Made by a program: the position numbers and the translations under genes | Part shown: one piece after another, positions 687 through 49,649 of the stretch | Numbering within the stretch: position 1 is the first letter of the stretch | Layout: every line of letters starts with the position of its first letter | Source: Halorubrum salinarum | GTDB taxonomy: Archaea; Halobacteriota; Halobacteria; Halobacteriales; Haloferacaceae | NCBI RefSeq assembly: GCF_013267195.1 | Contig: NZ_CP053941.1 | Span: forward strand, 1,674,001 to 1,738,000 | Direction: 5' to 3' | DNA: 64,000 bases | Notes under the pieces: generated by a model | Databases searched by the model: none | What the model saw: the letters and a program-made list of their open reading frames with translations, nothing else | Told to the model about the DNA's origin: nothing

Positions 687-1021
687 ACGCTCGCTGGGGC
701 CCGTTCGGACTTAAAAACCGCGTGAGCGGTGCGACGACGGCGGCGAGCACACCGACAGGTTACGGTACGCGGTGGCGCGTGCCTGCGAGCGGCCGCCGGA
801 TGCGGTCGCGAGACAGCACGCGCGAGGTCGCCGGCGGCGGAGCCGCCGGCTGCCAGAGAATCTTCGATTCTCGCTGGGGTCGCTGGCTCCCGGAGCGAAG
901 CGGTGGGTGCCAGCGGCGAGGCCGGGGCTTTGGAGGCGATCGCGGTCTACCCGGTGTCAGTGATTTATAAACACCCGACCAGGTACTTGACGATGTTCTC
1001 AACCGGTCTACGTCTACCGAT
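687..1021. other. Intergenic region holding one copy of a dispersed repeat
   Basis: This stretch of about 335 bases has no convincing gene. The short open frames in it are arginine-rich and match nothing I recognise. It holds the short, minus-oriented copy of the dispersed element (768-947) and, next to it, a TATA-like TTTATAAA at 964-971 that would point leftward into the element. Confidence 0.6.
768..947 (-). repeat. Dispersed structured intergenic element, copy 1 (short form)
   Basis: Read on the minus strand, this copy begins with a box similar to the other copies (CCTCCAAAGCCCCGGCC at 936-920) and ends with the identical box CGCGCCACCGCG (779-768). Between them are three hairpins: 7-bp arms at 881-887/909-915, 7-bp arms GAGAATC/GATTCTC at 856-862/866-872, and 9-bp arms GCCGGCGGC/GCCGCCGGC at 830-838/842-850. 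The central part of the full copies at 43.4 and 49.4 kb is missing, so this is a shortened or divergent member. A TATA-like box lies about 26 bases before the first box, which would place a transcription start near the box. Function unknown. Confidence 0.65.
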
Positions 1022-43358: not shown

Positions 43359-43417
43359 CTCTCTCTGCCTGCGGGCGTGAGCGGCGTCTTTACTTATAAA
43401 CGACCGTTGTCAGTGGA

Positions 43418-43702
43418 TCGACGGCGAACACCGCCAAAGCCCCAGCCGGGAGGCGGGCGCACGCTCGCTGCGGTCCTCACTCGGTCGCTCACTGCGTTCG
43501 CTCCCTCGTTGCGGTCCTTACGTCGCCTGCGCCCGCCTCCCGGCTGCCCCTTTGAGTCCCACCCCGTACCGCACCGCCCCGCTACCGCACCTCACGCCTC
43601 CCCAGCCTCGTCGGTGGTCCGTCGCTCCGCTCCGGACCACCGACTCCCTCGCGGGCGGGCTCGCGGCCGCCGGTGGCGGCCGCTCGCAGGCGCGCCACCG
43701 CG
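43418..43702 (+). repeat. Dispersed structured intergenic element, copy 2
   Basis: The 5' box is CCGCCAAAGCCCCAGCCGGG (43431-43450). It leads into a perfect 19-bp stem: arms at 43443-43461 and 43528-43546, enclosing a 66-base loop. After a C-rich conserved stretch (43547-43610) come two more hairpins, arms TCGGTGGTCCG/CGGACCACCGA (43611-43621/43633-43643) and GCGGCCGCC/GGCGGCCGC (43663-43671/43675-43683). The 3' box CGCGCCACCGCG is at 43691-43702. The element is outlined by TACTTATAAACGA (43391-43403) and its near-perfect inverse at 43706-43718 (12 of 13). A TATA-like box lies 29 bases before the 5' box. See findings for the covariation with copy 3. Confidence 0.75.
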
Positions 43703-43730
43703 AATTCATTTATAAGTAGCCGCCGCCCGC

Positions 43731-49329: not shown

Positions 49330-49358
49330 TCGCCCGGACATACGTCGGTGAATACTGA

Positions 49359-49649
49359 TCGACGGCGAACGCCGCCAAAGCCCCAGCCGTGAGGCCGCCG
49401 TACGCTCGCTGCGCGCTTCACTCGGTCGCTCACTCCGTTCGCTCCCTCGTTTCAGTGCTTGCGTCGCCTACGGCGACCTCACGGCTGCCCCTTCGAGCCC
49501 CACCCAGACCGCACAGCCCCGCACCTCACGCCTCCCCAGCCTCGCGGCTCACGCTTCGCGGCTTCGCCGCTCGCGTTCGCCGCGTCCCTCGCGCGTGCGA
49601 CTCGCGGCCGTCGCTTCGCTCCGGCCGCTCGCCGGCACGCGCCACCGCG
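49359..49649 (+). repeat. Dispersed structured intergenic element, copy 3
   Basis: The 5' box is CCGCCAAAGCCCCAGCCG (49372-49389). The main stem has arms at 49384-49402 and 49469-49487, pairing at 18 of 19 positions around a 66-base loop that is nearly the same as in copy 2. Compared with copy 2, four stem positions changed and each has the matching change on the other arm. A C-rich conserved stretch (49488-49544) is followed by different but again self-complementary hairpins (GCGGC/GCCGC near 49558-49570, CGGCCG/CGGCCG near 49605-49626) and the 3' box CGCGCCACCGCG (49638-49649). No clear TATA box precedes it. Confidence 0.75.

Follow-up and report, generated by a model that had tools for sequence, protein, structure and literature searches.

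The window, by which we mean the whole 64,000-nucleotide stretch of Halorubrum salinarum DNA analyzed here, holds three copies of a non-coding repeat: copy 2, which is the subject of this analysis, the full-bodied copy 3 and the decayed copy 1. We described the family with a covariance model of the first hairpin, domain I (model R1, built from 37 of 40 copies, three with a long domain I being omitted), and with a full-length alignment, A1, of 35 of the 40 copies, omitting a truncated one and four that carry large inserts. Besides copies 2 and 3, R1 finds no match in the window, and searches of the same stretch for tRNAs and, at gathering thresholds, for Rfam families returned nothing. The features are:

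43391–43403, unstranded: 5'-side TATA box of copy 2 (TACTTATAAACGA), recurring in 34 of 84 copies; it starts 40 nt before the CCAAAG foot, where the commonest spacing is 37 nt
43413–43432, plus strand: conserved foot and tail segment (ATCGACGGCGAACACCG...), which recurs in tandem 57-nt units beside other copies
43433–43557, minus strand: domain I, the long hairpin of copy 2, with covariation and an R1 match of 126.5 bits
43597–43607, plus strand: conserved single-stranded linker CCTCCCCAGCC, near-invariant columns in the 35-copy alignment
43610–43644, unstranded: domain II, a hypervariable hairpin, GTCGGTGGTCC...GGACCACCGAC, from the 35-copy alignment
43650–43697, unstranded: domain III, the terminal hairpin, with a TC/TC internal loop (GA/GA on the minus strand) and a co-varying trinucleotide
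43706–43718, unstranded: 3'-side TATA box of copy 2 (TCATTTATAAGTA), recurring in 30 of 68 copies, 3–13 nt past the end of domain III
49356–49648, plus strand: copy 3, with a complete body whose domain I spans 49374–49498 (model match on the minus strand)
777–971, minus strand: copy 1, decayed; domain I lost, a small palindromic insert near 825–875 and a 5'-type box at 965–971

On the minus strand, domain I comprises helix P1 (CAAAG/CTTTG), a 3x3 G-rich internal loop, helix P2 and, further in, a helix in which 2-bp steps alternate with tandem G-A mismatches. Copy 3 follows an additional 57-nt tail unit, whose foot motif is at genome position 1723317 (window 49317). Loss of domain I between the CCCC runs on either side of it, with the remainder of the element kept, has occurred repeatedly (L142, L143, L152, L095, L097, L098 and window copy 1). 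Small perfect palindromes, for example of the CCAGCGAGGGACCGAAGGTCCCTCTGGC and ATCAGAACGC...GCGTTCTGAT types, are nested in copies at recurring internal places (window 825–875, L016, L019, L046, L082, L088, L093, L145 and L146) and resemble the small mobile repeats of Haloquadratum.

The original prediction took the two 13-mers flanking copy 2 for TATA-containing terminal inverted repeats, the hallmark of a MITE, with inward promoters as the alternative. Their coordinates are exact, and reading the sequence confirms an inverted match at 12 of 13 positions. Among shuffles of the 60-nt flanks of copy 2, 1 of 200 gave a match this good, and of 400 random pairs of windows at equal distance 6 did. 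The inverted pair is thus unusual but not decisive alone, and most of the match comes from the palindromic TTATAA core. The pair is missing from copies 1 and 3, as had been said. Copy 1 does carry a 5'-side box (TTATAAA at 965–971, which reads TTTATAA on the strand of the element), spaced, counted by hand, at the 37 nt commonest in the family, and copy 3 has degenerate boxes only.

To follow the boxes through the family, we scanned 84 copies from the genus for 7-mers that differ from TTTATAA by no more than one mismatch. A 5'-side box is present in 34 of the 84 against 13 of 840 control windows (1.5%), and a 3'-side box in 30 of the 68 copies with a recognized 3' end motif (16 of the 84 being dropped) against 4 of 780 (0.5%). 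The 5' box sits in the 57-nt unit that is often tandemly repeated beside a copy. Where both boxes are present (11 copies), the bases around the core agree on average at 9.9 of 24 positions in direct orientation and at 6.9 of 24 in inverted orientation, the latter taken as the best of two registers. Boxes paired between different copies give a direct agreement of 10.2 of 24, the same as within copies, so the direct similarity is a family-level property. Given the recurrence above controls and the direct agreement in 11 copies, the boxes are true end modules of the repeat, lying at the two ends of the unit as predicted, and the inverted look is special to copy 2, a case that the prediction had itself allowed for.

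These counts bear on two other accounts of the boxes. A chance likeness between two A/T-rich boxes that have no connection with the repeat, named beforehand as the refuting case, could draw on the 6 of 400 random pairs that reach 12/13; the recurrence of the boxes at many times the control rate refutes it for the boxes themselves, and we find it barely credible overall, although chance may have a share in the inverted relation as such. The classical MITE account, with the boxes as terminal inverted repeats, has in its favor the inverted match of copy 2 and the position of the boxes at both unit ends. Of the recurrence that it predicts, the boxes recur and their inverted relation does not, being replaced by a direct one, and many copies miss one or both boxes. 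Occupied and empty versions of a site tell the same way: at site 1146278, comparison of the occupied state (own genome and G111) with the empty one (G133 and G224) puts the right-hand junction immediately beyond the 3' box, and neither there, nor at site 991065, nor between L081 and L093 did inspection by eye reveal the target-site duplication that had been looked for, a weak test because the insertions are old and a duplication may have been lost. The MITE reading is thus already largely refuted, and we consider it highly improbable.

The repeat is abundant and widespread. With copy 2 as query, blastn gave at least 46 matches in the own genome (40 of 270 candidates scored), and R1 gave 61 matches at 59 distinct places. 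All 61 lie on C1, the main chromosome (p 0.0004 from replicon lengths alone; the genome has 3.34 Mb and the contig of the window 2.94 Mb). An R1 match at E ≤0.001 is present in 219 of 292 sampled haloarchaeal genomes, in 62 of 77 genera and in all 35 genomes of the same genus, copy numbers being lower bounds as the survey scored 12 candidates per genome. All 21 chosen distant haloarchaeal genomes have R1 matches, up to 83 each, and a pattern scan of the genome collection found haloarchaeal titles for 80 of 80 titled loci among the matches listed. Distant genera retain GGGYGGGACUGAAAGGGGCYG ... GGGGCUUUC together with the inner helix. A virus or plasmid origin was rejected, the element matching none of 50,697 phage records and two of 72,556 plasmid records, both weakly. 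A search of six loci against Rfam with E up to 1 returned RNase P RNA and, below threshold, one CRISPR repeat model and one miRNA model, none of them for the element, and the searched literature, to which subscription journals largely do not belong, held no description of it.

Several arrangements were seen alongside. An archaeal RNase P RNA gene adjoins one copy (L045 2388–2750; own genome C1, ~1,606,880–1,607,242). In another family, at L120 (1616–1763, the domain I flank on the minus strand), the hairpin is followed by three tandem units of ~49 nt ending in CCGGGGCTTTCTG, a parallel to the 57-nt tail units seen in Halorubrum. Pairs of domain I hairpins that stand head to head, like REPIN doublets, occur in other genera (L107, L122, L123, L126, L128 and L133), sometimes only ~40–200 nt apart.

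Using gene calls from a simple codon-usage script rather than annotation, we found all 40 own copies to be intergenic, with neighbors that are co-directional on the plus strand in 14 cases, co-directional on the minus strand in nine, convergent in nine and divergent in eight. Thirty distant loci, taken on the strand of the model, gave nine, ten, four and seven in the same order. Since neighboring genes show no orientation preference in either set, a gene-end or leader element was rejected.

The fold is conserved by compensatory change. In domain I of 37 copies, two-sided changes occur at 24 of 36 pairs, a number that none of 500 shuffles equaled, and 94.4% of paired cells are complementary against 80.0% in shuffled alignments and at most 42.8% with the partners slid. 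In three sets that share members, domain I has three or more 2-bp/GA-GA steps on the minus strand in 25 of 37, 67 of 84 and 18 of 38 cases, against none of 1,590 shuffles; the zero count on the complementary strand follows by construction, GA/GA becoming TC/TC, and is not evidence in itself. The copies from relatives that enter the statistics are biased toward best-scoring matches. Template switching that corrects palindromes could produce some of this covariation; in its simple form such correction is disfavored, because it would remove the G-A mismatches that are conserved.

The kind of pairing speaks to the molecule under selection. Selection on an RNA should leave G-U far above A-C, as in RNase P RNA of 30 haloarchaea (87:12), whereas the element has 47:30 (p 0.07) and 36:26, and 33:26 in a further alignment, so its pairing looks DNA-maintained. 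An early hand tally of ~28:6 in 35 copies, which had suggested a minus-strand RNA, was dropped in the light of these larger alignments. A weak minus-strand excess of G-U in subsets (16:6, p 0.05, for own copies after reduction; 31:11 for distant copies after filtering) keeps an RNA conceivable.

The copies might accordingly be independently transcribed genes of structured non-coding RNAs, with the 5' box as promoter of the plus strand or the 3' box as promoter of the minus strand. The covarying fold suits such genes, as does the better folding of the minus strand under RNA parameters in 37 of 37 copies; tandem G-A motifs, too, are typical of RNA. Of the 34 boxes on the 5' side, 25 start exactly 37 nt before the CCAAAG hairpin foot, a fixed spacing that is right for a start just before the fold. 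By the haloarchaeal rule that the TATA motif starts at −26, given in the part of PMC8707807 drawn on here, transcription of the plus strand from the 5' box would begin ~7–11 nt before the folded body, and for the 3' box the start would in many copies fall within the last hairpin. The well-placed box would drive the strand without the G-A motifs. The scarcity of G-U, nearly balanced by A-C, the missing Rfam match and the boxless majority (50 of 84 copies on the 5' side, with no TATA evident by eye at that place in distant genera) count further against RNA genes, which we consider rather unlikely. Judged by sequence, the boxes may possibly be weak promoters.

Comparison between species shows that the sites are often shared. 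At the icd-lrp site, among nine genomes with an adjacent lrp, seven have a full or decayed element (L077, which is the own genome, L088, L093, L095, L097, L098 and L101), L080 has a remnant and L081 has none. At 12 other sites in five relatives, 40 stretches were compared out of 60 locus-by-genome combinations: 27 carry a model match, four a remnant (L142, L143, L147 and L152) and nine no element. Orthologous copies at ten sites have a mean identity to the own copy of 0.80 (26 comparisons, range 0.68–0.94), while 561 pairs of own copies average 0.786 and the best own paralogue reaches 0.82–0.96. One nested palindromic insert recurs, always in the same position within the element, at sites that differ between genomes: G111 and G103 have it at site 1413335, and the own genome, which is without it there, has it at site 924557. 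Since orthologues are no more alike than unrelated copies and a nested insert is shared with other sites, the sites, often common to species, persist while sequence is exchanged between copies.

What moves the repeat could be a Y1 transposase acting in trans on a PATE-type derivative of IS200/IS605. PATEs of Haloquadratum walsbyi, in the portion of their description used here (PMC3119063), have near-terminal palindromes and heterogeneous sequences, lack terminal inverted repeats and target duplications, and are preferred targets of small mobile repeats; the element shares these traits, nested small palindromes among them. Its distribution is at odds with such mobilization: all 61 matches are on C1, yet seven of 13 tnpB-like genes of the own genome are on C2 or C3, and the tnpB-like and Y1 genes on C1 lie 6–89 kb from the nearest R1 match. 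The own genome has four Y1 genes, each with a tnpB-like gene within ~1.5 kb; the two on C1 are 28 and 88 kb from the nearest match. A model search for palindromes related to IS605-type ends gave nothing better than E 0.011 at 12 of the 13 tnpB loci, and the single fragment near a tnpB-like gene (L298, ~1 kb or less away), which lacks domain I, is not established as a transposon end. An IS200/IS605 origin is therefore unsupported by the gene distances and the model search in the own genome, and we judge this account improbable. Among the IS200/IS605-type genes searched, no transposase or other enzyme is linked to the family.

Our preferred reading, held with about even confidence, is that copy 2 belongs to a family of dispersed, intergenic, non-coding haloarchaeal repeats of structured DNA, REP- or PATE-like, that are exchanged between sites. 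The property conserved in the family would be a folded single strand, the hairpin forming in single-stranded or extruded DNA, where tandem G-A pairs on one strand would give it an asymmetric, recognizable shape. Copying or gene conversion from site to site would spread the copies and rewrite them. The TATA boxes are directly oriented end modules rather than inverted repeats on which a DDE transposase acts. DNA as the acting form, the copying route and the promoter role are what we infer; the family, the covariation of the fold, the recurrence and orientation of the boxes, the missing gene-orientation preference, the confinement to C1 in this genome and the shared sites with exchanged sequence are direct results. 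A bolder version, which we advance tentatively and rate as unlikely, makes it an ancient, class-wide and chromosome-specific repeat that acts as a folded DNA strand through its 2-bp/G-A ladder, occupies fixed chromosomal sites over long periods, passes on structure but not sequence because the latter is continually exchanged from site to site, and has no transposase of its own.

If the reading is right, most haloarchaeal chromosomes share a structured repeat that matched no Rfam family in these searches and has no description in the searched literature, and the compensatory changes that conserve its pairing bear a signature that is nearly DNA-like rather than RNA-like. Same-site copies in different species would then be no more alike than copies elsewhere, and exchange among dispersed repeats, by gene conversion or in-place copying, would become testable in culturable, polyploid archaea.

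Against known systems, PATE, REP and MITE each failed on at least one tested defining feature. Like PATEs, as far as the cited portion of PMC3119063 describes them, the element is haloarchaeal, short, non-coding, heterogeneous and of high copy number, with palindromes near its ends, ends that are not inverted, small-repeat inserts and no duplication seen; it differs in the lack of a detected IS605 link, in its restriction to C1 in the own genome, in the inner hairpin of G-A steps and in its presence in most haloarchaeal genera. TnpB omega RNAs and sotRNAs, in the part of PMC12558985 consulted, are likewise structured, haloarchaeal, RNA-like folds at intergenic places or gene ends, whereas the element does not adjoin tnpB and matches no Rfam family. 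Halovirus HF2 class I repeats, in the relevant part of PMC8707807, are intergenic units of ~58 bp with a TATA box, proven promoters there; they are viral and have no attached folded body, and the element is absent from the phage records. From REPs and REPINs the element differs in being much longer (~290 nt, three hairpins) and in that the own genome has no single-copy Y1 gene of the RAYT type flanked by repeats. With them, as portrayed in the portions drawn on of PMC3116915 and PMC3733652, it has in common many intergenic copies, an imperfect palindrome folding as a strand with conserved mismatches and, in some genera, inverted pairs of hairpins.
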